Source: Romanomermis culicivorax (taxonomy: Eukaryota; Nematoda; Enoplea; Mermithida; Mermithidae). From it: DNA of 64,000 bases. A model generated the notes under the pieces. The model was not told where the DNA came from and did not search any database. It saw only the letters and a list, made by a program, of their open reading frames with translations. The DNA is taken from NCBI GenBank assembly GCA_963922205.1, contig CAWUHX010000004.1:2480001-2544000 (forward strand), given 5' to 3'. The first letter of the stretch is position 1. Each line of letters begins with the position of its first letter. Both the position numbers and the translations under genes were made by a program. Shown here piece by piece: positions 6,138 to 43,833 of this stretch.

Positions 6138-7662
6138 ATGAATAAACACGAACAAGAACTGATTCGATTTTTGACTCAAGACAATCTCGCGGCTCGCCTC
6201 GAAGCCTTGAAAATTCTACGGAGTTTATTAGGTCAGGAGAACTTTTCGCCGCAAATTTTGATCGTCGATGACTTTCGCGGTACGAAAATTTTATGCAAAT
6301 TGGTCGTTGAATCGAAAAACGCTCAAGAAACCGGTTTAATTATTGATTGTTTGATTAACGGAACGTCGAATTCGGCTTTAGTATCAAATTTTTTATTAGA
6401 AAATGATGAATTGTTGAATTTTTGCTTAAATTCGGCGCCAAATTTGAAAAACGTGATCATGCTGTTGTCGAATTTAACTCGAGAAAAACGTCTATGCGAC
6501 AAACTTTGGCCGAATTTTCGCCAACATTTCGACAACGCGTGGAAAAATTTGCATAATACAGACGCGAATTGTGATTATTGGTTCTACGTAATTAGGAACT
6601 TTAGTCAACTGGAAGAATTTCGCGGATTTTTATTCGAGGAATTGGAGGATTGTGGTGTTCGAAAAGCGAAATTACAATTTTTATTCCCATTGACAAATTT
6701 GAACGTTCCGGAGAAGAGGCGAGAAACGGCGATCGATATAATCAGGAATTGTACTTTTGATTATGGTGAGAATTTCATGTCACTTGATGGAAAATTTGAT
6801 GAGGACTGTAGATATAATCGATTTTTTCCAGATAATCATCAGAAACTGATCGATTTTGGCGACGATTTTTTGTTCGCAATGCTCAATCCGATCATCGGCC
6901 CCGAAGAATTGTCCGAATCGGAAAACGATTCCCTACCCATCGATCTTCAATACATGACGCCTGACAAAGTTAGAGAACCGATTTTAAAGATCAGGATGAA
7001 AATTTTGGAAGCCTTATATCAGGTAGAATACTGTAAATGTAAATTCTGTACTCCATTCATTTTTAAACAATCGCTGCAGCGATTTCATGGAAAGTTAGTT
7101 CAATTCGGAAAATTCTAGTTACCTTATTACTGTAATCAATGAAAGAACTTTTTCGTCGGTGAGCGCCCAACAGAATAGCTGAGAATTTCCTTGAATAGGC
7201 TAGTTGAGTGGTCAAAATTCCTCGAGTAGCACTGAGGTATCGACGCAGTTCTGTCCAAATCGATAGTGGGTAAGCATGATGTCGTTGAAACGTGTTTCTC
7301 ATCCTCGTGAAGAAATTTGACGCCCATCATTTCAAGCCCAATAGGCTATATAATCTACTTGATAATATAAGTATTTTCCTATGGAGCTGATAATGGTATC
7401 GTCGCTCGAGTAATATTGCTTACTGTATACTGCACATACTTTTCAGCTTTGTTCTACAAAAAAAGGCCGAGAATTCTTACGCGACCGCGGTACCTATTAC
7501 GTTCTTCGCGAATATCATAAATGGGAGAAAGACGACGAAGCGGACGATCTATTGTTCAACGTCATCAACGTTTTGATAAGGACGGAAAATGAAATCGGTT
7601 ACGATAATTTACACGAATTAGATACGAGCGTTTTGACGCCGGAGGAAATCGCAATGAAATAA
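6138..7662 (+). CDS. HGH1: HGH1 homologue (FAM203 family)
   Basis: Two exons, 6138-7022 and 7447-7662, join in phase 0 across a GT-AG intron (AG/GTAGAA donor, TTTTCAG acceptor) to give 366 residues. That is close to the roughly 390 residues usual for animal HGH1. HGH1 is an armadillo-like helical-repeat cytosolic protein, described in yeast as a TRiC/CCT cochaperone that helps fold eEF2. The diagnostic block is near residues 275-295, with LPIDLQYMTPDKVREP matching the conserved LPxDLQYxxPDKxREP signature. It is followed, after the intron, by KKGREFLRDRGTYYVLREYH. The start is the ATG at 6138, which gives the family's usual short N-terminus; the open frame extends in frame to 6066, but that extension looks untranslated. 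There is no frameshift or stop, and the last residues EEIAMK end in TAA. An intronic open frame after 7022 is not coding. Confidence 0.93.
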
Positions 7663-7918
7663 TGATTCGAGGAGTGCTTTTAAACTTTTGTGATTCGTTT
7701 GATATTGATGTCATGAATAATATGTTCTCCGACAAAAATGATTGCATACAGGGAGCTGCGGAAAGACGCATGAATCTTGTTTCACTAAAGAATAAATCTG
7801 TAACGTGCGTACAGAACAGTTCTGTGTTCTGGTGCCTATCGGCTGTCCAAAATTTTAAGCTTGTGTCGTTGGAGGATAAATTTTCTACTTAAACAGTCTG
7901 GGGAATGATTCAAAAATA

Positions 7919-8190
7919 CACTGCAAAAAAAATCTGTTGAATCAACATGAAATTTTCATGTGTAATCGGTTGCCATGAAAGTTTCATGTTGATACAACAT
8001 GAAATTTTTTCATGTAAGTGCAACATGAAAATCTTTTCATGTCAATTCAACCCAAAATTTTCATGTTCATTCGACACAAAACTTTCATGTACATTCAACA
8101 TGATGCATATATATGTCGTCTTATTTTCATGTTGCAATAACATGAAATTTTTTGTAGTTTTTGTGCTGGTCCAACATGAAATATCGCACA
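7919..8190. repeat. left terminal and subterminal repeats of the 8.7-kb element
   Basis: About 45 bp of TIR starting CACTGC, then about ten ACATGAAA or TTTCATGT half-sites, often paired head to head (for example ACATGAAATTTTCATGT). The overlapping open frame 7947-8210 is translated repeat, not a gene. Confidence 0.75.
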
Positions 8191-8457
8191 TCATTTTATT
8201 GATTTTTTAAAAATATTATGATACATAACAAAAGGCACAAGAAATACGGATAAAAAATACTCTTAAAATTTTTGAGAATAAAGTTCTAACAAATAAAAAT
8301 TCTGATCATCAAATACTCGTAACACTCGAACAGTAAAAGCTTCACGTAATAATAATTGAGATTATAAATTAAAAATTATTGTACATGGAACATTGAGCTA
8401 AACTTATGAGCTACAAAATAACAACTGTAAATGACTAAAATTCTTAAAGTTCACCCA

Positions 8458-11400
8458 TTATTTAAAGCACGAATTTGTTAAAGACAACAATGCAGACACA
8501 CACTTATGAGGTTTGCTATCGTTCCAACCTGTTTTGATAATAGCCTGTTGTAAAAATTGGAACGTGTTTTGAGCTGGATATTTCAAGTTTAAAATATTAC
8601 AATATACAAGAAGGTACATAACCGCATCACAAAATGAGGTAACATTGTCAAGCAAAGTGTGCTGTTCGGCAGAAATAAAAAAAGTAATACCACTTGTTTG
8701 CTTGATAATTCCAATGAAGGAACTCAATCCATCCGACTTGCTGCCAATTGATTCGTCTAATTCCAAGTCTAAGGCACTATCCTGAATAGGAAGAAGATTC
8801 AAAAGATTGGAAAACATGAGTAGCGCAGAATTACAAAGCTAAGAAAGAAATAGAAATTAACCTTACCTCGCCTAGACGACAAAATGATCCAACAGCTTCC
8901 TTCAATATTCCTGGAACGGCCAAAAGAGCTTCATTTCGTCGTGCACTGATTGGATCCTGCTCATCACAAAGTAACCCAATAAGTTCCTGAAAATAAAAAA
9001 CAAATTAATAATATATTCGTGTGAGAAAAATTAGTCACACATGCATGTTGGGTGTTCCCTCATGAAGGAATGCTTCTCTCATCCCCCAAAAATTGGAAGA
9101 AAAAGGTAAATAATTAATTTTTTTAGTTGGAATAAGATTTTGTCTTCAATTGCATCTTCAGGAATGTATAAACTTGCATGTCAAGCACATGTTTGAAAAA
9201 ATGCCTAGGTGCCTGAGTAAAAGTATTAACATTTGCAGTGCTTACGTGTGTAAAAGCATCAACATTTTTAGTCTTGCGCACATTTTCCTCTAGAATAACA
9301 TTCACGATTTTGTCCAATGATGCGGACCAATGATCTTTAATATTTACTCCGGTTAAATAAAAGAATTCTTGTGCAACCTATAACACAAACACTTTGGAAT
9401 TACAAGAATCTGTTTAACATCTCATCCTATTAATTACTTCATTGCTTCTTGATAAAGCTGGCCAAAGATTAAAAATTTCGTAGATGTAATGCAATCGTTT
9501 TTCATTTTTCTCATCAACAAATTTATCAACAATATGACGCCGACGTAACGCATATGAAGAATGCATCAAATGTTTGACTGCCTTCCAGTCGCAAGGGATA
9601 ATACGCACTAAAAAGTGGAAAAATTTATAAAAATGGTTTTTTGGTTTCATTTGTGGTCCTGCTAGAATTCTGGGAGACGAGGCAATCAGGATTTGTGGGA
9701 TTAGTTTAAATTATGGAACAATCTGACCATACATGACACGTGCACACTCAGACTTTCCAGAGTCAAGTAACTTCTTCCTGGTTTTATGAGTTTATCACAT
9801 TTTTTGTCTATTTAGAATTTTTTTGGTATCATAGTTCTAAAATTGTTGCTAATTACTTAAAAAACATAGTTGGAGTGACAAAAAATTTCATGTGATTGGT
9901 CTAATTAGCTCTGCATGGTCGGAATTAGGTAACTTGAAGCACATTGACCCTCTGCCCATGTACGAATCTCACTTTTGGCCGCTGCTTCTTGACGATAATT
10001 GTTACAAGTTTCTTCAGTTTCTCCTGGTGGATAATCGGGGCGAAAATTGACTTCCCCTCGCCTGGCTTTCACAATAGCCTTATGGCCTAGTGGGGCGTCC
10101 GGATTCATATGACTTTTTTTCCCTTTGTTTACCTGAAATTATTTCATTTTTTGCTTTAGGAGATTTCAGAGAGATTCACAAAATAAAACTCTTCAGTGTT
10201 TTTTTTAGCGTGGCCTCATTGGCGCCTGAGCTAATGAAGCCAAAAATCTATTAGCGCACATCAGCGCCCAAAATTTTTGACGTTTTTTGCATGTAAACGT
10301 GCATAAATTCATTAGCGCGCGCGCTAATGACCAGGATTTTTCATTAGCGCAGCCCAAAAAATTTTAGCGCTGCGCTAAAAAAAAACTGTGAAACTCTTCA
10401 TCCATTACGTGGACAATCATAAAAAAGACCTACTTCAATTGAGGAATCTTGACCAGTTAACCTCAATGCCCGTCGTTTATTGCTCAGCTTTTGGTCAATA
10501 CTATAGACCCAACCTTCATATCCCCTTCCAAATGGGGTTTCTTGTTTTAAAATTGGAAATTTTTCGACCAACTGTTTGGCAACTTGTGCCCTTTGGGCTG
10601 CTAAAATAAATAAAAACTAGTATTATTTTACATTGGTGTTCCTACATTTTCCGGTATTTGTTAAACTCTGTCCTCTAGGATATGAGTAGTCTTCAACTAA
10701 AATATGGAAGGGAAGACCCTATTTTTCAACCTGGGGCAAAAAATCTCAGCCAGATAGGGACAGTATTTCATTTTTGATGATTTATGATTTATCATTATAC
10801 TCGTATCATCTACCTATTCCCACACATGAAAAAATTTCCTGATAAATGACTTCTGAGGTTACATTGCACAAAACATTTGGGAAACTCTCATTTTGTACTA
10901 AAATTATGAACATTGCAATAAGTCAAATTACCCGATGGATATGGAGTGTAACAATATATGGCATCACCCAGGGCAGTCAATATAAGGCTTTTGAGCCGTT
11001 TTCCAGATGATAAATGGTCAGCTTTTGAGGCAGGATTACTTATGCACTGTTTCATCAATGCGGAACATTCAGCACTTCGCTGCGCATCCAAAAAGTCAGG
11101 AATGGGAAAATTGATTGGCCATGGTCCAGCTGTCCTTGTTCCAAGGGGTGAATTCATAAGCATAGTCTCTGGCCTAGACTCCGCAGAAGACAAATAAATT
11201 TTGCAATTTGATGTGCAAAGGAAACTTCATTCATATAGTGAAACCACCATGAATAGAAAACAAAGATAAAATACAAGAGGAATAGCAAAAACTACCTTCA
11301 AAATTCTGTCTAGTTTGTGAGGATGTACAATTTTTTTTAATGAGTGACAAAACACCAAATTCGCCAAATGTTTTGTCAAAAATTTGAATTTTATATTCAT

Positions 11401-11673
11401 CCTGAAACAAATCAGACGTCAATAATGGCAAAAGTAAATTTTAAATTAACCAACATTAAGGTATACACACTAAATAGGATTTTTGACAAATCTGTAGGGT
11501 TCACTTACCAAAACAATATATGCAGAATCTAAAGAGGATGACTGCAATTGAGAATTGATTTTCAATTCTAAATGCTGTCTAAAATTGTCCATATTTAAAA
11601 AAGGTCCAGTGATCTTTAGTCGTGGTTTTGATGATGGACTAATAACCACCATAATATTTAATTCCATTGTCAA
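8458..11673 (-). CDS. SAMD3-like protein, nine exons, intact
   Basis: Nine exons join without a stop: 11673-11509, 11401-11296, 11168-10932, 10600-10434, 10132-9973, 9607-9438, 9377-9246, 8986-8867 and 8838-8458. The sum is 1638 bp, or 545 residues, with GT-AG at every junction and consistent phases. Landmarks match the sterile-alpha-motif-domain-containing-protein-3-like family of animals. These are FPILKQETPFGRGYEGW with SIDQKLSNKRR (exon 4), RRGEVNFRPDYPPGETEET (exon 5), SSYALRRRHIVDK and WPALSRS (exon 6), and the C-terminal ILNLKYPAQNTFQFLQQ (exon 9). I see no clear SAM domain; exons 1-2 resemble a small N-terminal ubiquitin-like/PB1-like region. Function is unknown. The ATG is 106 bp downstream of the stop of the zinc-finger pseudogene, same strand. 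The least certain junction is the exon 7 donor (GTAAGC at 9245). Confidence 0.82.
10194..10390. repeat. hAT-type MITE with exact 8-bp target duplication
   Basis: Termini are CAGTGTTTTTTTTAGCG and the complement of CACAGTTTTTTTTTAGCG. The 8-mer AAACTCTT is found immediately before (10186-10193) and after (10391-10398). The 197-bp body is full of ATTAGCGC and GCGCTAAT half-sites, including TTTTAGCGC-T-GCGCTAAAA, a near-perfect hairpin. It sits in intron 4 of the SAMD3-like gene, about 36 bp beyond the exon 4 donor, and leaves the splice sites untouched. Confidence 0.85.
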
Positions 11674-11779
11674 GTTATAGCTGAAAAACTAAATGAAATG
11701 TTGAATTACATGCACCCCAAGATAGCTTTGTTGGATAGAAACAAAAAACCAAGATGACAACAGCTATTTTAAAAATATT

Positions 11780-14700
11780 TTATTTTAAAACGATTGGTTC
11801 AAAAACTAGAAACTTCAGGGCAATCCATAATTTTCCACAATATTTATATGCATGCAAAGGGTAAAAACTATCCAAAACATTTTGCTTGAGAACATGAATA
11901 GTACTTTTTTCCTCAACCAGCTCATAGCACGAAAAATGACAAGAGTAAAATGAAGTAAAATGGGTACACAAAAAAAATATATCGCTATTTATCAAAAATA
12001 TATAATCAATAGGACAAAATTCAGGATGCCCACATGCAAAGCCGTGGACCACAAACATTCCAGTGCGATATTTTTGGCCGAAAACAGTTATTTTCTTTCC
12101 AACTTCAACTCTATCCAGCATTGGAAACTTTTGCCAAAAAGCATCTTTATGTAAAGCTGCCAAATTGTTGACCCAAAATGTAGTAGATGAAATGACCATT
12201 TTTTCTTCTTTACAATAGGATTCTGACATCATCAGGTAAGTTTGCCAAAGCTGATGTCTTTTAGACAATGTAGAACAAATATTCTTAAAATTTAATGTTT
12301 GATGAATGATACGTTTGAAAAATGCATGCTTCAACTCAAAACGAATAGTTTGAAAGTAAATTAATGGTCTGAATTTCCTAATCATATCCAAGTAATGTTC
12401 GACAAAATGATGTTTAGGTTTCAGCCCTGTTTGGAAAGGCTTTTCGGAACCAATAATGATGTTCTCTAATTACCAAATCTAGAATGCAGATTTGGTATTC
12501 ATCAAATTTTTCGGCAAAAGTAAATTCAACGATTTTTCTTAGCATCAAAATGCACTTCCAAGCACAATCATCGCTTGGAACCATTTTACCAACCAATAAA
12601 GGCAAAAATCTAAGCAAATACAAATTTTTGGTAGCATTACCACCAACATTTTCTCACTTGCTAAAATCTGGATGAATAAAATCAAAAATATTTCGATGAT
12701 CAAGAATTCCAAACTGTAATGTTTCAGACGGTTTTGGATGTAATTATAGTCAAAATATTTTTTACTAATAAAATACGTCAATGCAAGACTCAGTTCATAA
12801 GGTACAATGCCTTCCCCCAGGTAATGGGTTGGATCAGGTGGCAATATTCGTGTGATATGAACCAAATCCAAAGAATTCATTGGAGAATTGAATTTTATAC
12901 CATGAGCAGACCAGTGTGCATCACCCGATTCGACTTCAGCCACATGGACATCATAGTTTTCTTCATTTCGTGATTCAAAATCAAATGCATTAAATTGATC
13001 ATTCTGAAACAGAGCTATTTGGTAGGTTGTAAATTACTCAAAAGACTAAATAATCAAGGATATTTCAAAAAGGCCACAATTCTCTCAGCTAACTTTTAGA
13101 CTTCATGAACAAATTGAAAATTTCCACAAATTCCGAGACTACATCATAAAATTTCACCTGGATATCTGCAGATGAAGCAGAGCAAAAACGACAAACATGT
13201 TGAACATTGGGTCCGAAACTTTCCGAATAGCAACCCATGGCATGTGCTGATGAAAAAAATACTGCTAGTTACTAGTAAAAATTGATTAAAACAGACTACA
13301 CAGTGAGATAATTAATGGCAAAACTTAAATCAAGAAATAAAAAAAAATGAAAGAATAAAGAAAGACAGGAAGATAAATAAAGTTTTATGGTGTAAAATGC
13401 CTTATAGTCAGCTTACCAGCTAAGTTGTCTGCACAAATGAATGCCACAATGCCATAAATATAACAATTTAATTTTTAAACGAATAAGCCAGTTTGCTCGA
13501 GAATTGAAATGTCATATGAAATCGGCTGTAGAACTTGTGCAAGACCACATTCTTTCACAGCAGCACTGGGACACAGTGCCGCTAATCTTATCCCGTGCAA
13601 GCATCCATGGAACTTTCGTGGTAATTTACCAATTATATAATAAAATGTGCTTAATTTTCGCTTTGTAGCATACATGCCAATTGGATTGACAGCTGTCCAG
13701 TCATCATATTATAAAAAAATCTTCAAATTATACTTATCTATTGTTTTGAAATTCATTAGCTTATTATATGCCCTATCATGAAATGCAGTATATTTGAAGT
13801 CTTTAGCTGTAAAGAAAAACATGTTTTAGTACTCACATATGCAATGCAATATTCAATTGGGATAACAATCTGGATTTCATCCTGGTATTTATTTACAAAT
13901 AAAGATTTGATTTACTTAACATCAGTCCAAGAAAAAGTCCTCCCAGCTGAATATCACACACATGCAGCCATGGCAGAATTAGCAAGCACCATCAAAATAG
14001 TAGTCAAAAACCTAAATGAATTACTTTCACTTTCATCCAAAAATTTGTCCAGCACATCACTGTTATCAAATAATGTAGCAAGATCTTTCAAAATTGGGAT
14101 GTAAACCATCCTAAATTTTTTATTTCGTCCCCTTTTAAGGATCATTTGCACTGAAAAATTGAACTTTTTTAAAACTATAACTAAGCAAAATAAAAGCAGT
14201 TTTTCATATTTACCGGGTGCAACATGAGGCAAATGTTGAGTAAAATAAAGCTTTCGATGATGCGATGTACTGAGAGATGCTTTATCACCAGTGAATCGCA
14301 TTAATAGGTCAGATTGCAGGAAATCATTTTGTGAAATGGGTGATGACAATGAATCAAAAGCATGGCCTATCGATAATGAGTGAAGATCCTTAAACCCATC
14401 AAAAATTTCTTGAATCGCATACTCTGGAACATGCCAAGCAACTTGCATTTAAGGAAAAATAAGGCCAATGCTTTTTCAAAATTTTGATTAGTGTAACAAT
14501 TAGTGGCCGCCATACCAGGATTTTCATTGTTTCCACTTCTCTGAACACTATCCTCATCAACATCATCCACTAAATCATCCTCGATATTTTCACTTCTGTC
14601 CAGCCACGAATTTAAAATTGGTTGATCAGACTTTGTGACAAAATAGCTGCTATCCACTTTATCAGTAGCCAACATGTGGGATTGTGATAGATGACTACTC

Positions 14701-15050
14701 CATGTTCTAGTATTATTTGTGGAGAATGTACAATTTTCATAGCAGCATTTAACATTTTCATGATTTTGACGAATATGGACACTTCTCAAATGGGAGCAAA
14801 GTTCATACAGCGAGTGGAACAAAGGAGTCTTATCATTGTGGCAAGTAGGACAAAAATAAGGAACATTCATATCAGGTTTGTTTTTGGCTCTATGACTACG
14901 GTGAATGTGTATGTTAATTGATGCCAAACCTACTTTAGTCCCACAGTCCTCATGAGGACATGGATAAAATTTAACGCCAAAGTGGAAAATAGGATAGTGT
15001 AAAAAGATCTGCTGCTTAACAATACTGCAGCCACACAGCTTGCAAATCAT
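11780..15050 (-). pseudogene. C2H2 zinc-finger protein with LPPD-H-EG domain, broken
   Basis: Exons 15050-14214, 14150-14025, 13806-13417, 13246-13158 and 13003-11780 have good GT-AG edges and matching phases. The N-terminus has three or four C2H2-type fingers (CKLCG, CPHEDCG..HIHRSH, CPTCH..HLRSVH, CYENC..HLSQSH), then an acidic linker. The rest follows a family common in cnidarians and fishes: YIPILKDLATLF, KRKLSTFYYIIGKLP, GPNVQHVCRFC, LPPDPTHYLGEGIVPYEL, NFKNICSTLSKRHQLWQ. Lesions are a frameshift near 14450 (one A short in an A run), in-frame TAA at 13709-13711 and 13475-13477, a frameshift near 12712-12724, TGA at 12654-12656, and a frameshift near 12414. The C-terminal part still looks full length. 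The role is unknown; as the largest gene of a TIR element with DNA-binding fingers it may be a transposase. Confidence 0.8.
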
Positions 15051-15833
15051 TGTCGAAATTAGCTGAATACTGAAATGATTATAGAAATCAAACCATAAAA
15101 AATAGTTTGCATATGGATATGCATAACTCTGATCTGAGTGGGAAATTATGCATGTTCAGATGGAAATTAGAGTTGAAATTCAAAAGGTTTTCTATCTATT
15201 GAGATGTCAAGAACCCACTTTTTGGCTGAAAACAATTGATTTTTGGTATTTTGATTGGCATTAATAATGTTCAACAGGTGAATCAACTATCAAAGGTCCA
15301 ATCATTTAGAATCAACCCTCGCTTGTCAAAAATCCAAACAGTTGACAAAATTAAATATGAATCTCAATTGCCACAACCTGAAATTTTTGATGGCGCCACA
15401 AACAGAACTTCAGTCATAAAAATTCGAGACGTTGATAACTAGAAGTCAAAACTAGTTGTTAAATTAAAATGTCTGAAAATTGATTCTTCAAAAATTTATG
15501 CCCATTTTTATCCCTGTTTAAAGTTTTCGATCAGTCTTAGAAGCTGACTGACCTGCAGTTTTCCTGAGAATTTAGTGCCCAAAAATTAAAAAACTGATGT
15601 AAGCTCTGCTCTACCATTCTTCTTCAAGCTTGTATTTTGCACATCATCAAATTTTTTTGTCTAATTTTTAGTGCAGAATGACCACTGCTCCTGCTTTAAA
15701 AATGCACATAATGATGTTGTCATTTCGTTTTGTAACTAAAAAGGGCTATAACTTAGCAGTCACCCATCCGTCCCACTTCTAGCTGACGTTTTCCTCTTTT
15801 CTGCTTCCTACGACACGACTCACATAATGATTT
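15051..15833. other. 5' flank of the zinc-finger pseudogene
   Basis: Non-coding DNA inside the 8.7-kb element. Open frame 15236-15442 (plus) has no family features. The promoter of the minus-strand genes would be expected here, but no clear TATA-initiator pair stands out. Confidence 0.4.
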
Positions 15834-15994
15834 GGGCTGACTAAAATGCGGACACGGACACGGACAGGTTGCGGACAGGCAAAAAATACGCCAGAATCTA
15901 TCAGAATCTGCCTGTCCTGTCCTGCCCGCGTTTTAGAGACATTTTTGTTTTTCCGCGACCTGCCAGTGTCCTTGTCCGCGTTTTACTCACACCT
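15834..15994. repeat. MULE-like MITE with exact 9-bp target duplication
   Basis: A 161-bp element starting GGGCTGACTAAAATGCGGAC, with a right end complementary to AGGTGTGAGTAAAACGCGGAC. It is flanked on both sides by TAATGATTT (15825-15833 and 15995-16003). Repeated GGACA and TGTCC blocks allow almost the whole element to fold back. A 9-bp duplication suggests the Mutator-like superfamily. Confidence 0.85.
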
Positions 15995-16479
15995 TAATGA
16001 TTTCATGATTTAGTTTCTATCTTTTTAACCTAATTAACCACGATTTTTAATCTCCTATTTAGACGTAATAAACTATTATTATTATTATTATATAGTTTTA
16101 TAACTACATTCTAATCAATAATGAACTCGAATTCCAGCCAGAGAGCAGAGCAGGGCTTCTTCAAAAATGTCAGGAAAAAAACGTCAGATTTCCAGGGGGT
16201 GGGTTCTCCTACTCCTCCCCTCCCTCCTCCTAATTCCTTTACTCCACTACATTTTTGCCCGACTTGTAAGTTGTAACAATGTTTGCTGTTTGGCCCTCCA
16301 CTAGTTCTCGAGTTAATTATCGATTCCCATTCCTAATCCAGAACCAGAACGCCGTCAAAATTCAAAAAATCTGAAAATTTTCAAAAAGTTCCGCAGGTAA
16401 ATTTATACAGTAACTTTGGAATATAGGCAGCTGATCACGTGTGTGTGCACATAAATATCTACCTGCGACCCTTTTCAAC
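15995..16479. other. non-coding, with a short ATT microsatellite
   Basis: Contains an ATT microsatellite around 16073-16092 and no supported gene. It lies between the nested MITE and the right subterminal repeats of the large element. Confidence 0.45.
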
Positions 16480-16652
16480 ATGAAAATTTCGTGTTGGTGC
16501 AATATGAAAAAAATACAAAAATGATGGTATGTTATTTTTCATGTTAGTTCAACATGAAACTTTTTCTTATGGAATTAAACATGAAAGTTTCATGTTCGAG
16601 AAGAAGTGAACATTAAAAGTTCATGTTGATTCAACAAATCGTTTTTACAGTG
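16480..16652. repeat. right terminal and subterminal repeats of the 8.7-kb element
   Basis: Mirror of the left end: ACATGAAA/TTTCATGT half-sites, then TTGATTCAACAAATCG and a terminal TTTTTACAGTG. The last 45 bp pair with 7919-7963 in inverted orientation. Confidence 0.75.
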
Positions 16653-17249
16653 TACCTACTCACTGACCTTCAACAGGTTATATCAATCCAATTAGGTCAT
16701 TTCTTTTTCATTGAACAAGACTCAGTATTTTGCAAAAAAATAAGATCTTCGATTTATCCCCTGAAGTTTTTCTCTTGCATTTGGACCATTTTCGAAGTTG
16801 GAACATTTATAACATCTCCAAAGTTAACTCGTGGATTTACAAAAAAATTGAAAATTAACAAAATCATTGTAGACTGTCAACTTGGAGCATCTAATTTTAG
16901 CAATATCAGTTACTAAGACTCACTTTCCATCCAGAAATTTAGAATAAAAAAATTCCAACAGTTTTAAATTCTATAACAATGCCAAATGAAATTAATGTCT
17001 ATTAGTATGATTTTAATTTACATTCAAATGTTCTGTGGGTTCATTTCCCAGCATTTTATAACATAAAAACCAGAAAACTTTTCTGGTGCTATGTTACCAA
17101 AAAAGAAACACATTGATTTTGATATTTATAATCAGAATCACAGAAACATCAATACCTTATGAATTCATTGGAAACCTATGCTATGATATGGTTTCAACTG
17201 CTGTAGAATATTAAACTAATGTGTTGTGCCACATTTTGAACATGTTAAA
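16653..17249. other. intergenic, no gene seen
   Basis: AT-rich DNA between the right end of the 8.7-kb element and the tandem duplication. No supported coding or repeat feature. Confidence 0.4.
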
Positions 17250-18025
17250 AATTGATGAATGTTTTTGGGATATTGGAAAACAGTTGGGGAATGATTCTCA
17301 TGTGGAAAAAAATCTGTGAGAGAAAAAAATTGTGTGCAGCTTCATTATCGTTATGCAATGGCATCCCTTAGTTCAATTTTAATGCATGATTTTGTTCATA
17401 GTTCAGTACCTACTGAAAAATAACTTTTGGTCATGAGTAGTCTAAGTAATATCCCTTAGAAATTCATTCCTGAGATTTGTTTGGCCTAGAGTAGCTAAAA
17501 GCCAATTGATTGTGAAGCTTTGCCCCAGACAACACCACAAGGATCTTAAACATGTCATTATGTGCCTTTCACCAGGTCCTGTTTTGTCTATATTGAATAT
17601 TTCTGGAATTTTCTCCATGAGAAAAATTCCTGTTAATAGGCCTGCATTTAGTGATAAGTTCAACAAATTTTTGCGTCCTGTGAAAAGCCCCCTAGTCATT
17701 TTGGGGAGCCAAAAATTAGTTATTTATTCATTATTTATGGCCATGGAGTATTATACTGGGCCACATTTGACCATATCTTCTTTTATGACATTGAATTAAA
17801 ATTCCGGTTTACTCTGGGGATCAATGGGTCAGGTTTTCTGGAGTAGTTTGGCAGTTTTTTTTGGGGCAAGCTGTTGGTTTCCTGTTAAACTAGCTTAGCT
17901 AATGGAGTAGGTGACAGTTGTCTTTAGTATGCTAAATAACAGTTACAATTTATCGATGTTTAATCTAAGGAAGCTGATTTGAGTGACCAACAGTAATCAG
18001 TTGTGTACAAGCAACAGCCTTTTCA

Positions 18026-18090
18026 ATTGTATTGTCCAGACCTAAAAATTGTATTGTCCAGACCTAAAAATTGTATTGTCCAGACCTAAA
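18026..18090. repeat. 23-bp tandem repeat, three copies
   Basis: TTGTATTGTCCAGACCTAAA recurs three times with a 3-base AAA linker. Unit B has only one diverged copy at the matching place, so the expansion happened after the duplication. Confidence 0.85.
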
Positions 18091-18343
18091 GCAGAAATTT
18101 GGACATAACAATTGGGCCAATTCAAATACTTTGCATTAAGACAAGTCTCATACACAGACAATGGGTGATAGCCAGTAGCAGGAGTGTCCTGTTTGTTCAA
18201 AAAGAGAGGTATTATCAGAAAAGGTATTGAAATGGGCCAAGCAAAGTCTGATTCCTTAACATTAGTGTAAAACTTCCATACTTTCTCTCATGTGGATTCA
18301 TATATAATCGAACCAAATGTGTTCAACAACCCCAGCAAATACT

Positions 18344-19206
18344 TGTAATGAACATGCTAACGCAGTACTGTAAATATATAGTGTACACTATGTGATAATC
18401 ATTATTAAATATTATTTCATTTCCTTATCTATTGTCTCAAAGGTGTCTGGGATTCACACCCAAACATTCTTGTAAAATTATGTGAAGTACTTTATTTTGA
18501 TCCTCCCACACCCCAGTAGTCGCTATTGACCCAATTAAGGTGCCCAATCAATTTGCACATCGGCAGCTTGTCCCCTAGAATCTACACTAAAGTACACATT
18601 CTACGGCTACACTAATTTCTCATAAAAATCGTAAGTAACACTGATGCACAGTAAAAAGTGAAAGCCCCCCAGACATTAGTCTCAAGTGGAATGGTAGGGA
18701 TGGTCCCACAAAACATGTGTACACAGAAGAAATAGATACAGAGGCATGCACAGCAGTACAGAGGTGTGGCTAAGTTCACCCTAGGAAGCAAGCATAGGGG
18801 AAGCACAAAAAGCATTCAGTACTAGGAAAGTGTTGGAAGGCGTGACTAAGAACGAAGCAAGAAGCAGCTATTGGCGGAAGAAAATTGATGGAAACAAGAC
18901 CTCCTGCAACCCCAAGGGAGCGGCCACAGAAGGGGTATTTAAAGAGAAGCAAAGCATGATTCTGTCGGAATTAGTGGTTTTAATTTCATTTGAAAGTGTG
19001 TTCTCCGTAAAAGCAAGATTTTTCGAAAGCAGTTAAACCCAGTTTTGTTATTTGCAAGCAATCCTTTTGTATTTTATATCAAGGAGCAAGCCATCATCAA
19101 GTGGGTGTTTAGTTGACTGCCATTATATTTGTACCCCCATCCTGATTGTCCATCGCACCATTCTCCTTTGGGTCAGGTAAAGTATCACTCAGAACTGGTC
19201 GTTACA
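18344..19206 (+). repeat. 5' LTR of the old LTR element
   Basis: 863 bp, TGTAAT...GTTACA. It contains a TATA-like TATTTAAAG at 18936-18944. It differs from the 3' LTR (875 bp) by many substitutions and small indels, which implies an old insertion. Confidence 0.92.
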
Positions 19207-19211
19207 TCTTT

Positions 19212-19224
19212 TGGTGACCGTACC
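19212..19224 (+). other. primer-binding site of the old LTR element
   Basis: TGGTGACCGTACC, five bases after the LTR, begins with the TGG expected to pair with a tRNA CCA end. The same 13-mer is found in the 40.5-kb element. The tRNA species is not identified. Confidence 0.7.
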
Positions 19225-19451
19225 ACATCGTTAACCACTGGAACTCTCTGCCCCACTAGGTGCATTCTTTATCCAGGCATCCTGAAGCATTAATCACATA
19301 CAGTAGTAATCATTTCCTACAGTAGGACAGACATTTGTAGAAAGGCAAACTGTAAATCCCCTATAACGAAATATTAAGCAATACATTTTTACAAATACAG
19401 TGTGAAGCAAAAATTGAAGCATTTAAGCAGAAATTCCAGTGTAAACCAAGA

Positions 19452-20892
19452 ATGACCCACTAAATGCAAGATCATTTTGGAGCGTTAGAGAACAGATAAA
19501 TGATTTTTTTTCTGAACATTTTTGTACTCTACGCACACAATTGAACCAAAAAACAGTAAACCCTACCCTAATTGAGGATCTAAGAACAGCAAACATTCGT
19601 AATAACATGGCAAATAATTTCTACCTCAAACCAACAGTATTCACGGGCTGCATGACTCAATATTTTATTGAATGGAATAAACATTTAGAACAATTCATGG
19701 TACTCCAAGACATGAAAGATACAGACATACAGTTAAAGTTAGCATGCTTAGAAATTCATTTGGGAGGAGCCCCGTCAGCCAAATTCAAAAGTCTAGCCAC
19801 TTCCGAAAACCCTCCCAACACATACGAGCAGCATAAAATAGCATTGCAGGCCTTTTACCCAAATTATCGAGATAATGAGCTACATCAACAATTTTTGCGA
19901 GAGAGAAAACAAAAATGATCAGAAATAGTCACCTAATTTAGGTTTGATCTAGAACACCAAGCAACCCTCACCTACCCCAATTTTAATACAGATGCACGAG
20001 AAATGATCATAAAACCCCATTTTGTTGAAGGCATGCAAAATGAAGTCAGGGAAGCAATTAAGTATATCAAGTTAGCAACCCTAAAAGAAAGGTCCAACAA
20101 AGCAGCTTACATTGAACAACAAATCCTTAGGAATGAGCTAAAATCCAACGCCCTCCCATTTATATCCCCAAAACCTGAACCCATCTTTTCACTAAGCAAC
20201 AATACTGACAAACAGGACCTTTTGCATCAATTAGAACAACAAGTAAAAGATTTACAGTTGCAGATCAAACAAAATCCCAACCCCCACAACAGAGTAACTA
20301 CAACAGTTTTAGCAACAACAACTCTTTTAGCAGAAATAACGCCTACAGGAACAACAGTACTCTAAGGCAACCTGCATGCTTTCAGTGTGGACAATTCGGA
20401 CACGTAGCTCGCAATTGTAATTCATCAGGGACCCAAAAAGCATGTAAAATTTGTTTTTGTACTAATCATGTTACACAGGATTGTAAAAGCTGATGCATCC
20501 ACTGCTCCCAAACAGGACATAGATCTGATAACTGTCTTTCAAAACCTTACTCTAATTTTCAATGTTTTCTATGCAAGCAGAGAGGTCATACAAGCAGGTA
20601 TTGCCCCAACCAACAAAGTCGTAATATCCAGAATTGCATTGAGTATAGGCAACCCCAACCCCTAATGGACATCAATGACCTGGCATTTTACTCAACAATA
20701 TCCGCCATAACTTACAGCCCTCAGAATACTTTAGTGACTATAATGCCAGCCAACCACCGCTGTAGTCAGGAGGAATACGTCCTTGACTTGGACATTCTCG
20801 ATTGGTGCGCAATTTCACCACCCCCGATGCCAGAGGCCGCAAAAAGGGCAAAATTGCTGCCCACCATTCCCACAAATTACAAGGTCCCCTGA
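19452..20892 (+). pseudogene. gag remnant with four CCHC zinc knuckles
   Basis: Homologous along its length to the Gag of the 40.5-kb element (for example NPTLIDDLRTANI versus NPTLIEDLRTANI, and EIHLGGA). Gag packages element RNA in cytoplasmic particles. After a capsid-like domain and a glutamine-rich coiled segment come four CX2CX4HX4C knuckles (20376-20625). Damage includes a shifted, stop-containing N-terminus (19452-19540), TGA at 19916, TAA at about 19934, a frame change near 20285 and TGA at 20491 between knuckles 2 and 3. A proline-rich tail follows to about 21180 in changing frames. Confidence 0.85.
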
Positions 20893-21183
20893 AAACCAAC
20901 CACCACTTCGCCCACTGCCCCAGAGACACCCACCTAAACTGGCTGAAATCTCCTGTCCCTCTTACACCGCCTCACCCCCAGAACCCTACAGATTTGGCCC
21001 CAGACAAACATTATTGCCGACCCCCATGAGTAACCAAATCCAAACCCTATCCCATAACTCAACTTCTAAAGTTTTACAGACTGTTCAGATTACAAACCAG
21101 CCACCCCCTCAGCACAGAACTGCAAAATGCCAACAACAGGCACACCAAACCGGCCAAAGCGAAAAAACACAATTCCCCGTCGC

Positions 21184-23126
21184 CTCCAATAAAAAATCAT
21201 ATTGGCCTTTTTGTTATATTTTTCTATGCATAATAATCCCTACATCATGTAGCACCCAATTTCAGCTCTGTGGAACTTCATTGAGCTGCCACTGGGTCAG
21301 CATAACAAAAACTGTATCATGCATGCCCCCTTCCACAGTAGACAAACCAGTACAGACATTCGGAAAAAATATATTCCCTCCACTAAACCTCACATAACAG
21401 ATGCATACAAATGCAGTGTTCGAAAATGGAAAATTTGTACTAATACTGGATTTTTTGGCTCAAAAGGTATTGTTTTTGACCAAACGGAAATGCAAAATCT
21501 AACCCCGCATGTTTGTAAGGCAATCGTTATAGACAAGGAACACAATGGTCAAAAATTATAGGGAACTCATCCAGGATTTCAGTCAACAAACAACGCCCTA
21601 ACTGTAGAATACACATGTTGTTGTACAGACCACTGTACATCTGTAACTAACGTCATCATAGAGATAGGACAAATAGCATCTTGGAATAGAAAATCAATGA
21701 CAGGTACATTGGGTGACCTGGGGTCATGCAAACTGACATCAGGCCATTGCCTAGTGGCGGATGGGTCTATTATCTGGAATGAAACAGCATTCGAAAACTT
21801 ATGCCCTTTTGAATACAAAAACACACATCCCATAAAACTGATGCAAACCCACATGATAATAGAAGAGCTACAAGGTGCATTCTCCGTGAAAAACACACTC
21901 TTTTCGAACCTCAACTGCCCAGAAATTCAAGACAGTGTCCTAACAGAACAGGGCTTTGTTGTACAGTTAGATAAAAGCACCCCACATTGTAACGCCTTTT
22001 TAACCCCAAAAATCAACGAAACCCATGATTTTGATGATTTTGAACCCATTAACACAAAACTAAACTATCTAGCAGACAAAATCCAAGAATTCGAGGTCCA
22101 AACTTTTGGAAACGTCTGGAGTGAATTATGCAGACAGGCGCAGAGTCATCTTGACTTAGTATGGCAAGTTCTGCGCCTTCATGCAACCTTGGGACCCATG
22201 CATTCCTACAATGGACCGACATAATAGCAGAATTCACAGGAGACGCCCTCACAGTCTGGCCCTGTAAGCAGGTCAATGCATCCAAAGTATTTTACAACCA
22301 TAAAATCAAGAGAACATGCTATAAACTTTTACCTATTCTCGTAGGAACTGACCTCATGTTTTCAAAGCCAGGAGTAAACAATTTGACGCCTTTCTCACAA
22401 ACCACTGATTGTCATCACATGCATGTAGCCCTTTACAAACAAAATAATATGTGGGTCAGCGAAACAGGATCCCCGCATGATACTGATCTACCTTTAGAAA
22501 TCCTATGGAACCAAAACTTCTTCCTCTTTCATTTCAACACACCCGGAATTTTTCATGATCAACTCGCAGCCATTTCAATCAACTTACTCTTTTTAAAACA
22601 ATACATTTACAAAACTAACACACTTGAAAACGTTGTTCAAAACACCCCCCAAATGTCTCTTAACTCAGATACAGTTTACAATATGATCTCAGGCTGTGGC
22701 CAAGCAATCCGAAATATCATCTCCAGTGCTGGTCAAGGCATAGAACACATAATAACCAGCACTACCCAAAGCCTCACAGACGGACTGAATAATTTACTCA
22801 AGGGACCCTTGCAAATCATTATTAACCTCGCCGTAATCACTGTAGTCCTTGCAGGCGTCTTTTAATCTTTTCTCATTCTTCAAAAGTATTTCCCTTCCCC
22901 TAAGCATCATATTACTAATGAACATGTATACAAAATACCATCACACACCAGGCATTCACATGAAACCATTCCCCCATCAATCGGGCAAGCTCTCTTAGAA
23001 TTAGCTAATTGTGGCAGGGCCCAAACTCAGCAGAAATACGTCTTTGTTGATATGGATACCTGGAGAACTCCCGCAATTGAACTTATAAATCAAATCCACC
23101 AATCTGGGTCAAATAAGTCACCCTAA
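21184..23126 (+). pseudogene. envelope-like gene remnant
   Basis: Follows gag directly. It has a hydrophobic signal-like segment (about 21199-21246), many cysteines (including a CCC...C cluster near 21615-21650), a region with spaced W and C residues, and a hydrophobic membrane-span-like segment near 22815-22862 followed by a possible cytoplasmic tail running on to 23126. Breaks are a frame change between 21319 and 21396, TAG at 21559, a frame change between 22161 and 22224, and TAA at 22863 just inside the membrane segment. Viral-type envelope genes have been acquired by several LTR lineages; which virus family this one resembles I cannot say. The envelope assignment rests on architecture, not on a recognised motif. 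Confidence 0.6.
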
Positions 23127-23273
23127 AATGTTACACTCAAACACCCCCTCAAAAATATGACTTGTACAGTACGTGTAAACAAAACGACCCCCTTCTATCA
23201 TCTAGAACTTACCTCCCAAACCACCCCGATCCCCTCTCAACCTCGAACCCCTTGAATGAGGAGGTTCAACTTC

Positions 23274-23286
23274 GGAAGGTGGGAAA
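23274..23286 (+). other. polypurine tract of the old LTR element
   Basis: GGAAGGTGGGAAA directly precedes the 3' LTR. In one frame it is also coding-like, and the preceding codons correspond to the C-terminus of the open frame in the 40.5-kb element. Confidence 0.8.
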
Positions 23287-24161
23287 TGTAACATACATGC
23301 TAATGCATTACTGTAAATATATAGTGTCCACTATGTGATAATCATTATTAAAGATTATTTCATTTCTTAATCTATAGTCTCAAGGGTGTCTGGGATTCAC
23401 ACCCAAACATTCCTGTAAAATTATGTGAAGTACTTTATTTTGATCCTTCCACACCCCAGTAGCCGCTATTGACCCAATCAAGATGCCCAATTAATTTGCA
23501 CATGGGTAGCTGGTCCCCTAGAATCTACACTAAAGTACACACTCCAGGGCTACACTAATTGCTCATAAAAATCGTAAACAACACCTGCGCACAGTAAAAA
23601 GTAAAAGCCCCGCCAGACATTAGTCTCAAGTGGAATGGTAGCAATGGTCCCACAAAACATGCGTACACAGAAGAAATAGATACAGAGACATGCACAGAAG
23701 CACAGAGGTGTGGCTAAGCCCACTGTAGGAAGCAAGCATAGGGAAAGCACAAAAAGCATACTGTACTAAGAAAGCTTTAGAAGGGGTGACTAAATTAGCG
23801 AGAAGAACGAAGCAAGAAGCAATGATTGGCGGAAGAAGATTGACAGAAACAAGACCTCCTGCGACACCAAGGGAGTGGCCACAGAAGCCATATTTAAAGA
23901 GAAGCAATGCATGATTTTGTCAGAATTAGTGGTTTTAACTTTATTTGCAAGTGCGTTCTCTGTAAAAGCGAGATTTTTCCAAAGCAGTTAAACCGAGTTT
24001 TGTTATTTGCAAGCAATTGTTTTGTATTTTATAACGATGAGCAAGCGATTGTCGAGTCCGGGTTTAGTTGACCGCCATTATATTTGTACCCCTGTCCCAA
24101 TTGTCTGTTGCATGGTTCTCCTTTGGATCAAGTAAAGTATCCCTCAGAACTGGTCGTTACA
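23287..24161 (+). repeat. 3' LTR of the old LTR element
   Basis: 875 bp, starting TGTAACATAC and ending GTTACA. Open frames on its minus strand are shadows of LTR sequence. Confidence 0.92.
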
Positions 24162-24511
24162 TAGTCCAGAAGTTTCATTTTGTATGTGTTTAAACACTGA
24201 CCGGTGATCATTAAATCCAAATCAGCCACTTATGTCGGCTTTTTCATGTCAGCATTCTATGAAATCATGGGTGCATAATTTCTCTTGGTGAGCCTCTTTT
24301 CATATTGAGCAGACAGAATGTGCTGCATTATAGGATAACAGAATTGCCAGTGAAACTCGATATATGCCTGAACAAAAGTGAATAATTCATTTCAAATGAA
24401 AAATTCATGAATTTCATATTATTGTTTTTCAATTCAATGTGAATATGTAATTCTTGTAGAATTATCTCCCTTCTTATTGTGATCGAAATTCTTCCACTCT
24501 GAAATAGACAA

Positions 24512-24877
24512 ATGATGTTCCCTGTTTTTTTGTTCTTCCTTGTACATCTTCATTTGGCAGTTGGTTGGGGCTGGCGTAAAACTACAAGGAAGGAAATACA
24601 TCCAGGATTTGATGTGGAAAGTGAAAAAGAGCAGGCAAAACTATTGGAAATGGTAGCGACGGCCACTGTCTCCACTTCATCAATGCCACAAAAGTGGAAA
24701 TTCCGCTTCAATAAAGCAAAGAGTCCTGAAGAGCTAGCAAAAGCCATTAATTTCAAGAGAGAGCTTGCAGAGGAAAAGCTCATGCGTAAACATGTCAAAG
24801 GTTTGCCGAAACATGTATTCCAGTTTAGGGAGGTGGAGATACATAAAAAATACTGCCCGAATTGTGACAAAATTTTC
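24512..24877 (+). CDS. first coding exon of a small secreted protein, unit A copy
   Basis: The ATG at 24512 opens 122 codons ending at a strong donor, TTTTC/GTGAGT, in phase 0. The N-terminus (MMFPVFLFFLVHLHLAVG) is a clear signal peptide. A charged helical region rich in K and E follows (about residues 25-105), ending YCPNCDKIF just before the donor, a CxxC pair. The following exon is not in this unit, because the intron runs into the duplicated DNA. It could join the cationic-peptide exons at 38398 and 39924, which are also phase 0, but that needs a 13.5-kb repeat-filled intron and is only a hypothesis. No family recognised. Confidence 0.5.
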
Positions 24878-24898
24878 GTGAGTCATTTTTATTATGAT

Positions 24899-26620
24899 GA
24901 ATGTTTTTAGGATATTGGAAACCAGTTCGGGTATGATTCTCATGTGGAAAAAATCTGTGAGAGAAAAAAATGGTGTGCAGCTTCATTATCGTTATGTAAT
25001 GGCATCCCTTAGTTCAATTTTAATGCATGATTTTGTTCATAGTTCAGTACCTACTGAAAAATAACTTTTGGTCATGAGTAGTCTAAGTAATACCCCTTAG
25101 AAATTCATTCCTGAGATTTGTTGGGCCTAGAGTAGCTAAAAGCCGATTGATTGTGAAGCTTTGCCCAAGACAACACCACAAGGATCTTAAACATGTCATT
25201 ATGTGCCTTTCACCAGGTCCTGTTTTGTCTATATTGAATATTTTTGGAATTATCTCCGTGAAAAAAATTCTTGTTAATAGGCCTGCATTTAGTGATAAGT
25301 TCAACAAATTTTTGCTTTGTGTGAAAAGCCCCCTAGTCATTTTGGGGAGCCAAAAATTAGTTATTTATATTATTATTTATGGCCATGGAGTCTTATACCG
25401 GGCCACATTTGACCATATCTTCTTTTATGACAAAGAATCAAAATTCAGGTTTACTATGTGGATCATTGGGTCAGGTTTTCTGGTGTACTTTGACAGTTTT
25501 TTTGGGGGCAAGCTGTTGGTTTCCTGTTACACTAGCTTAGCTAATGGAGTAGGTGATGGTTGTCTTTAGTATGCTACATAACAGTTACACTTTATTGACC
25601 TTTAATCATTGGAAGCTGATTTGAGTGACCAACAGTAATCAGTTGTGTACAAGCAACAGCCTTTTTAGTTGTATTGCCTATGTGTCTAGACGTAAAGCAG
25701 TAATTTGGACATAGCAATTGGGCCTATTCAAATACTTTGCATTAGAACAAGTCTCATACACAGACAATGGGTGATAGCAAGTAGCAGGAGTGCTCTGTTT
25801 GTTCAAAAAGAGAGGTGTCACCAAAAAAGGTATTGAAATGGGCCAAACAAAGTCTAATTCCTTAACATTAGTGTAAAACTTCCATACTTTCTCTCATGTG
25901 CATTCATATATGGTCGAACCAAATGTGTTCAACAACTCCAGCAAATAGTCCAGAAGTTTCATTTTGTATGTGTTTAAACCCTGACCAGTGATGATTAAAT
26001 CCAAATCAGTCACTTATGTGGGCTTTTTCATGTCAGCATTCTATGAAATCATGGATGCATTATTTTTCCTGGTGAGCCTCTTTTCATATTGAGCATGCAT
26101 AATCTGCTGCATTATAGGATAATAGAATTGCCTGTGAAACTCAATATATGCCTGAACAAAAGTGAATAATTTATTTCAATCAAAAAATCCATAAATTTCA
26201 TATTATTGTTTTTCCATTCAATATGAATAGATATATTGTGATCGAAATTCTTCCACTCTGAAATAGACAAATGATGTTCCCTGTTTTTTCGTTCTTCCTT
26301 GTACATCATGATTTGGCAGATGGTTGGGGCTGGCATAAAACTACAATGAAAGAAATACATCCGGGATTTTAGGTGAAAAGTGAAAAAGAACATGCAAAAC
26401 TATTGGCAATAGTAGCCACGACCACTGTCTCCACTCTAGCAATGCCATAAAAGTGAGCGAGCAAAAGCCATTAATTTCAAGAGGGTGCTTGTGGAGGAAA
26501 AGCTTATGCTTAAATGCGTCAAAGGTTTGCGGGAATATGGATTCCAGTTTAGGGAGGTGGAGATACATAAACAATACTGCCCGAATTGTGACAAAATTTT
26601 CATGAGTCATTATTATGATG
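24899..26620. repeat. tandem duplication, unit B
   Basis: Uninterrupted duplicate of unit A, about 10% diverged by eye. It carries the empty insertion site of the LTR element (about 25945). After about 26620 the two sequences part: unit A stops at the junction, while unit B continues into unique DNA. Confidence 0.85.
26271..26601 (+). pseudogene. broken copy of the secreted-protein exon, unit B
   Basis: Starts with the same ATGATGTTCCC as the unit A exon, but an in-frame stop follows after about 33 codons (in GGATTTTAGGTG near 26367), with internal deletions near 26450. The donor is changed from GTGAGT to ATGAGT. The CPNCDKIF end is still present. It is therefore a relic, while the unit A copy remains open. 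Confidence 0.75.
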
Positions 26621-40533: not shown

Positions 40534-41345
40534 TGTAACGACCAGATTTCTGTGAGGTACTTTACTTGGACCAATCGGTCGATACGGCGGGGTAAATAAC
40601 GGGACGGGGGCGCGGGCGTACGATTACAAATAAAACAAGGGGGATCGACGGTCGCTTGAACGTCGACAATAAACAATTCCAACGGCACGTTTGCTCGCGA
40701 ACCACGAATTTAAAAAAACCACAAATAATAATCGCGACCAAAATAATCATAAAAATCACGCTTTTCTTCTCTTTTATACAACGTTTTTGGCCACTCCCTG
40801 GGCGTCGCGGGAGGTCGTGTTTCCGTCGATTTTCTTCCACCAATCCCTGCTTCGCTTACCTGTTTCCGCCTTCTGTATGCTTCTTTCGCCACGCCTCACG
40901 TTAATTTACTCCTAATTTCTACGCTTGCATGCCTTTTAACCTACAGTATGCTTTGCCGCCTATGTTTTTTAGTTTTTCATGTGTTTTTCGGTTTTCCATG
41001 CATTCCTCCTAAATCGTTTGTCTGGGTTGGGATTTCTGTACTTTCTACATGGGCAGGTGTGTTTACGCGTTTTGGAGGGGATTATTGTACCTACAAAATG
41101 TGTATCTTCATGTGCATTACGAGGGCCAGGTGCCAATGTGGAAATAATTATGTGTGTCTTTAATTGGGTCGATGGGGTGTGGGAAGATCAAAATAAAGTG
41201 CTTCACATAAATTTATAAGAATGTTTGGGTGTGAATTCCAGACACCCTTGAGACGATAGATTAATAAATGAAAATATATCTAATAAATGAATATCACATA
41301 CAGTATGCTACATATTTACAGTACTGCTTTAGCAGGTACGTTACA
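40534..41345 (-). repeat. 3' LTR of the gag-only element
   Basis: 812 bp. On the minus strand it starts TGTAACGTACC and ends GTTACA. It holds a TATA box TGTATAAAAG (about 40771-40780). The plus-strand open frames within it and its partner are shadows. Confidence 0.95.
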
Positions 41346-43682: not shown

Positions 43683-43814
43683 TTTCAGTTTGTGTTTTTA
43701 CGAATTTTCGTCCTACTGTAGGAAACAATTACGACTGTATGCGATTACTGCTTAGGGATGCCCGGATATAGGATGCACCTTAATGGGGCGGGGAGTTCCA
43801 GTGGTTAACGGTAC

Positions 43815-43827
43815 GGTACGGTCACCA
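43815..43827 (-). other. primer-binding site of the gag-only element
   Basis: TGGTGACCGTACC on the minus strand, six bases inside the 5' LTR and identical to the site of the older element. Confidence 0.75.
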
Positions 43828-43833
43828 AAAATA

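Follow-up and report, generated by a model that had tools for sequence, protein, structure and literature searches.

The interval 7919–16652 of a 64,000-nucleotide stretch of the Romanomermis culicivorax genome (contig CAWUHX010000004.1, positions 2,480,001 to 2,544,000; this whole stretch is called the window below) is one copy of a mobile cut-and-paste DNA transposon, a conclusion that we hold with near certainty. The best explanation, and to us a very probable one, is a two-gene CACTA/EnSpm (CMC) element that encodes a DDE transposase and a maintained, TNPA/ORF2-like second protein. The new part is a two-gene lineage of animal CACTA/EnSpm elements with a constrained second protein, undescribed in the literature that we found. 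A second open reading frame (ORF) has a precedent among animal CACTA elements, in the SmTRC1 transcript (PMC1636069; here and below papers are cited from excerpts).

Ends, copies and empty sites

The window copy starts with CACTG at 7919 and stops with CAGTG at 16652. Its inverted ends are identical at 37 of 45 bases, against 26 for the best of 20,000 random 45-base pairs drawn from the window. Subterminal arrays accompany them: the window has 33 occurrences of ACATGAAA/TTTCATGT, compared with an expectation of 8.4 (none of 100 shuffles reached 33), and 17 of these sit in the two arrays, 12 on the left and five on the right. An earlier note on this DNA, made from the letters alone, had described inverted CACTG ends of about 45 bp and matching arrays that enclose two spliced genes, and this observation was right to the base.

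7919..16652: complete transposon copy, 8734 bp (two-ended copies and 2-bp target duplications in the host genome)
7917..7918: target-site duplication TA, left (flank comparison)
16653..16654: target-site duplication TA, right (flank comparison)
7919..7963, plus strand: terminal inverted repeat, left (37/45 matches to the right end)
16608..16652, minus strand: terminal inverted repeat, right (37/45 matches to the left end)
7945..8181: left subterminal array, 12 exact ACATGAAA/TTTCATGT (motif count)
16478..16595: right subterminal array, 5 exact ACATGAAA/TTTCATGT (motif count)

The host genome was searched with each end separately, and the copy counts are lower bounds. At least 11 loci belong to the window family, eight of them two-ended and three one-ended (C229, at a contig end; C4 near 1.94 Mb; C147). 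The two-ended copies span 1.4–8.75 kb: C5 has 8750 bp, the window copy 8734, C73 8732, C139 8667, C341 6061, C422 5736, C194 5286 and C59 1379. The shorter ones lack internal stretches and retain both ends, the C341 copy additionally holds inserted sequence, and the full-length copies contain both genes. Such genome-wide pairing of the ends was a check that the earlier note had set beforehand. The contrary outcome that it had named, with the ends scattered as unrelated miniature inverted-repeat transposable elements (MITEs) and the genes at fixed places, was not obtained.

The left end is CACTG in all eight two-ended copies and the right end CAGTG in six; in C5 and C341 a single base change falls within the right pentamer and ...GTG is kept. 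Ungapped identity over the 45 bases amounts to 34 and 36 in two of the seven other two-ended copies and to 19–20 in the remaining five, in which the A-run near the left end differs by at least one base in length (by eye). Target duplications are constant at 2 bp, as the note had expected: they flank all eight copies (TA, TT, AA, TG, TA, AG, TA, TA) as well as all five two-ended copies of a second family introduced below (TA, TA, TA, AG, TT), so that TA makes up 7 of the 13 and six differ from it. Both the CAC...GTG terminal inverted repeats and the duplications of 2–3 bp that are looked for in CACTA/EnSpm (CMC) elements are found in both families. Identity with Zisupton was considered and rejected, since an 8-bp duplication is needed there (PMC12730594). 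An Rfam scan of window positions 7600–17000 returned no matches.

Past mobility is directly visible at unoccupied sites. For two of the eight insertions, C422 and C73, we joined the flanks of the copy and matched them against the genome. With C422, 38 of 41 rows cross the junction, two of these reaching fewer than 10 bases past it on one side; the other three are two rows from the flanks of the copy itself and one row beside the junction. With C73, the 44 rows are made up of 38 that cross, two from its own flanks and four short side matches. The uninterrupted repeats that match the joined flanks are the empty sites, and they lack the interval for both insertions. A lone TA stands in all three aligned C422 sites, where the filled site has two. 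In the better C73 site one dinucleotide, TG, lies opposite the CA of the joined flanks, and the weaker site is gapped there. Seven copies diverge by 1.6–3.2% from the window copy (a range that omits C341, whose 13% is inflated by its inserted sequence, and a comparison that does not include C59 and C147), and in the second gene the rates are similar across the three codon positions; it follows that copies decay neutrally after insertion and that the spread is recent.

The transposase gene

The window copy holds two spliced genes, both on the minus strand, with the transposase first. The transposase gene runs from about 15050 to 11783 in five exons, as judged by eye, and its frame is broken in this copy.

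13960..15050, minus strand: exon 1, four C2H2 fingers, frame broken near 14448
13833..13881, minus strand: exon 2, short, borders uncertain (by eye)
13417..13806, minus strand: exon 3, first catalytic D (DDWTAVNPIG) and second-D stretch, broken frame (borders by eye)
13158..13246, minus strand: exon 4, C(2)C motif CRFC
11783..13003, minus strand: exon 5, broken frame in the window copy
12844-12809, minus strand: LPPD box in exon 5
within 12421-12383, minus strand: H(3)H in exon 5
within 12349-12314, minus strand: catalytic E in exon 5

Other copies preserve open frames, of 400 codons across the first exon in C5 and of 418 codons across the last exon in C73. Pattern search found four C2H2 fingers in three of the four host-genome transposase models; the C456 model, which is incomplete, has three. 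A profile of these four models led to nine outside homologues (P0001–P0009), of which one, from the wasp Eretmocerus hayati, is named. By pattern, the order D, D, C(2)C, H(3)H, E is present in seven of the nine (P0001–P0007), and the two catalytic D are separated by 87–97 residues in the homologues; in P0008 the H pattern alone was missed and is visible by eye, while P0009 stops ahead of the second D. Two of the host-genome models (C171 and the window family) have all five motifs, and the C110 model has N at the second H. This is the CMC motif order, D-D-C(2)C-H(3-4)H-E, as defined from PMC12730594.

P0005 also matches Transposase_21 (PF02992) below the curated threshold (E 6.3e-5, residues 296–458, which span the first D through the CxxC), P0006 does so at E 0.087, again below the Pfam curated cut-off, and DUF4218 gives weak matches under its cut-offs in three of the nine homologues. 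Given the motif order and the sub-threshold Transposase_21 match of an outside homologue, the C2H2/LPPD protein is almost certainly a CACTA/EnSpm (CMC) transposase, as predicted from its sequence; the earlier note had put it forward as a transposase candidate. Its LPPD box resembles the TRC box [LVI]DX[LM]HX3LG reported in animal TRC elements (DeMarco 2006, PMC1636069), and the altered positions vary among homologues (by eye). In a profile search of PDB with transposase alignment A2, the matches with the best E among 60 of 96 were zinc-finger proteins, found through the finger region. Viral contigs contained no match to the transposase or to the second protein, and phage records queried with P0001 contained none either.

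The second gene and its pairing with the transposase

The predicted second gene (11667–8458, minus strand) has nine exons, eight GT-AG introns and no internal stop in the window copy, and encodes 532 residues. Its exon borders were picked by eye so that the introns are GT-AG and the frame stays open, and matching borders in the C171 copy (by eye) support them. It is not open in three other assembled copies (C4 near 1.94 Mb, C5 and C139).

11509..11667, minus strand: exon 1
11296..11401, minus strand: exon 2
10932..11168, minus strand: exon 3
10434..10600, minus strand: exon 4
9949..10132, minus strand: exon 5
9438..9607, minus strand: exon 6
9246..9377, minus strand: exon 7
8867..8986, minus strand: exon 8
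8458..8781, minus strand: exon 9 and stop codon

The name SAMD3-like, given to this protein in the earlier note, is a provisional one. Neither the 532-residue protein nor three partial relatives contain a SAM domain, no Pfam family matches the protein above cut-off, the profile search of PDB gave no match and NCBIfam a single weak, irrelevant one. No homologues appeared among the approximately 8000 word-sharing candidates of each search, in a protein set apparently poor in eukaryotes. The label would fit multicopy proteins of fish; no search confirmed it, and on this evidence the second protein should not be classed as a SAMD3 member. As part of a CACTA element the gene was not found in the open-access literature, a body that does not extend to Repbase Reports; open-access papers on SAMD3 with transposon and on LPPD with transposase deal with other matters, and the excerpts of PMC4298943, PMC3985635 and PMC8277862 contain nothing on it.

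A second family, 57–59% identical to the window family across the last part of the transposase, shows the same arrangement. A pattern search with the C171-type end that allowed two mismatches at most gave 22 sites (none with the reversed control), which make up 16 loci, four of the C110 subtype. Five copies are two-ended, with sizes of 13.8, 12.7, 7.0, 6.3 and 6.8 kb, each with CACTG...CAGTG ends; subterminal repeats in this family are of the AACTTTGTTG kind, differing from ACATGAAA of the window family. Both genes lie in the same order as in the window in two of the five, C171 and C248. Thirteen of the 16 loci have the second gene between the ends or close to them; it is missing at C75, C18 at 1.92 Mb and C44.

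Counted at E<1e-3, with the weaker C49 and C509 dropped, 20 transposase loci are present in the genome. The second gene accompanies the transposase at all six loci of the window family and lies within 5 kb at 7 of the 14 others. The two genes are adjacent, in the same order and on the same strand, at seven loci (C110, C171, C248, C526, C139 at 593 kb, C456 and C282), where the transposases are about 39–61% identical to that of the window family per matched piece. A second ORF beside the transposase, another feature looked for in CACTA/EnSpm (CMC) elements, is therefore observed here. At nine loci with a related left-type end alone (9 kb read at each), four hold second-gene exons and five none, and no transposase match was obtained with the C110 query at any of them. 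The pair is thus typical of the window lineage and not universal among its relatives in the host genome. Paired ends, target duplications, empty sites and the order shared with the second family bear out the joint mobility of the two genes that the earlier note had proposed.

The second gene also occurs without a transposase match, in C173, C258 and C68 (two ends) and in C142, C257 and C260 (one end found). These copies possibly form a non-autonomous class; the second genes of C68 and C258 have many stops.

In the last second-gene exon (88–91 codons), synonymous change (pS) between the families is 0.72–0.82 and replacement change (pN) 0.23–0.45; for the end of the transposase (340–343 codons) the values are 0.75–0.82 and 0.15–0.29. 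Synonymous change is saturated or nearly so, and no ratio is relied on; replacement change is clearly below it in both proteins. The constraint is seen in the between-family comparison, the within-family codon statistics being those of neutral decay. Purifying selection between families thus acts on the last exon of the second gene, and its lower replacement change indicates that the second gene is not a useless passenger.

The anatomy of the element suggests how it may move. The zinc fingers and a putative RNase H-like core of the transposase would recognise and cut the CACTG ends, and the enzyme would insert the element with a 2-bp stagger. Family-specific arrays would need a reader, either the transposase fingers or the second protein. 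Most likely the second protein binds or bridges the subterminal arrays, alone or with the transposase, and pairs the ends, and it may have a regulatory function besides. In maize, TNPA has TNPD as an interaction partner that makes its DNA binding more stable (PMC1636069). By this analogy the accessory role that the earlier note had suggested looks plausible, and with moderate confidence we favour a TNPA-like partner.

The other part of the earlier proposal, that of an undescribed transposon family, stands as regards a mobile element with a constrained second protein, while the superfamily, CACTA/EnSpm, is already known. Multicopy SAMD3-like and C2H2/LPPD genes are annotated in animal genomes. 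A far more tentative proposal, which taken as a whole we consider rather doubtful, is that they are the two genes of a widespread animal CACTA lineage, in which a second protein that is obligatory and not related to TNPA of plants would have co-diversified with the arrays to pair the ends, vertebrate SAMD3 being its domesticated descendant. Independently of this proposal, the present finding makes two kinds of unexplained multicopy gene parts of one mobile element, and annotations that treat such genes as host families need checking. The element may also offer an animal parallel to the transposase/TNPA pair of plants, with two families that combine one type of enzyme with different arrays. A true relationship between the second protein and SAMD3 would raise the question of domestication in vertebrates.

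Competing explanations and known systems

Several observations weigh against a two-gene CACTA/EnSpm element with a maintained partner protein. The plant-type CACTA pentamer is absent from the two-ended copies of both families, which have CACTG instead; animal TRC elements, with CCC, depart from it too. None of the four host-genome transposase models gives a transposase match in Pfam, and the Transposase_21 score of P0005, 22.7 bits, is under the curated cut-off of 28.6. The measure of constraint on the second gene covers its last exon only. Three of the five two-ended copies of the second family (C173, C258 and C68) have the second gene and no transposase match. Conversely, no second gene lies within 5 kb at 7 of the 14 transposase loci outside the window family: C296, C34, C5 (3.07 and 2.68 Mb), C283 (383 and 105 kb) and C147 (800 kb). 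It is likewise missing from the 6.4 and 5.5 kb read downstream of C147:800354-801653 and C283:383020-384433. The transposases of the last two loci are more divergent (30–55% identical per matched piece).

It is possible, if clearly less probable than a partner at the ends, that the second protein is an element-encoded regulator or anti-silencing factor, which acts on transcription, chromatin or host defence and is kept for the persistence of the element. Its last exon is constrained, and the gene persists in copies without a transposase match, for example in C173 (6994 bp), where five of the eight matched second-gene rows are stop-free and three have one TAA. However, transposase loss through internal deletion is common in such elements, which we count against a regulator, and the second-gene-only copies C68 and C258 are decayed. 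Plant TNPA is regulatory as well (PMC1636069), but arrays that are specific to each family suit an end-binding partner rather than a regulator.

Placement in another branch of the CMC/CMCT group (Mirage, Chapaev, ESTA or Plavaka), outside EnSpm proper, we regard as unlikely. These elements (CMCT clade; Kojima 2025, PMC12730594) share with ours the D-D-C(2)C-H(3-4)H-E order, CA..TG ends and short duplications, of 2–5 bp. The large divergence, the predominance of TA (7 of 13 duplications) and host-genome transposases without a Pfam transposase match would fit such a placement, which is judged here by features. ESTA is described with TA duplications (PMC12730594), however, whereas 6 of 13 are not TA here, and the sub-threshold Transposase_21 and DUF4218 matches of outside homologues and the TRC-like box point to EnSpm.

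The closest animal elements for comparison are TRC/EnSpm (SmTRC1 of Schistosoma and insect relatives; PMC1636069), which likewise have a 2-bp duplication, two conserved D, CXXC, the box and spliced transcripts. Clone B4 of the SmTRC1 transcript has two tandem ORFs, the second of 299 residues, a two-ORF plan that the window element shares. TRC ends begin with CCC, in contrast to CACTG, and zinc fingers are named in the excerpted text for CXXC only (PMC1636069), whereas four C2H2 fingers precede the core in the window element. Plant CACTA elements (En/Spm; PMC4158355) encode a transposase and ORF2/TNPA, with ORF2 aiding excision in some families, and share with our element the two ORFs between inverted ends and the CAC...GTG form of these ends. 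They differ in having CACTA ends and 3-bp duplications (PMC4158355), where the window element has CACTG and 2 bp, and the second protein here is without a Pfam match above cut-off.

That the second gene is a captured host gene, Pack-type cargo of no use to the element, seems quite improbable. Its spliced, host-like structure could be read in this way, as could its absence near half (7 of 14) of the other transposase loci and the host-family name that the earlier note had given it. Captured cargo would hardly be expected beside the transposase in the same order and strand at seven loci with transposases only about 39–61% identical. Some exon borders also coincide between families (by eye), and constraint is seen between families even though copies within a family drift. 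Lastly, two ordinary genes flanked by chance by short MITE copies, an idea that related left-type ends elsewhere might have suggested (5 of 9 without a second-gene exon, 0 of 9 with a transposase match), are ruled out for practical purposes by ends that pair in eight copies with 2-bp duplications, by deletion derivatives that retain both ends and by empty sites without the interval.

Some other features of the window should be mentioned. Two GC-rich palindrome-like stretches, seen by eye, lie within the element at 10230–10380 (in a second-gene intron) and 15840–15960 (upstream of the transposase), and could be nested short repeats or regulatory sequence. Upstream of the insertion, which falls outside it, a frame at 6054–7118 matches DUF383 (E 2.9e-25); we take it to be HGH1-like. 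On the other side, 17307–26620 is a retroelement-like stretch with direct repeats such as 17307–17606/24948–25247 (98%), and its ORF 22155–22865 matches the viral fusion glycoprotein model PF24664 (E 7.5e-10). A second retroelement-like stretch at 40534–44133 is bounded by 99% identical repeats (40534–40833 and 43834–44133), between which a zinc-knuckle ORF lies on the minus strand, and one part, when inverted, resembles 19484–20239 of the first one at 72%.

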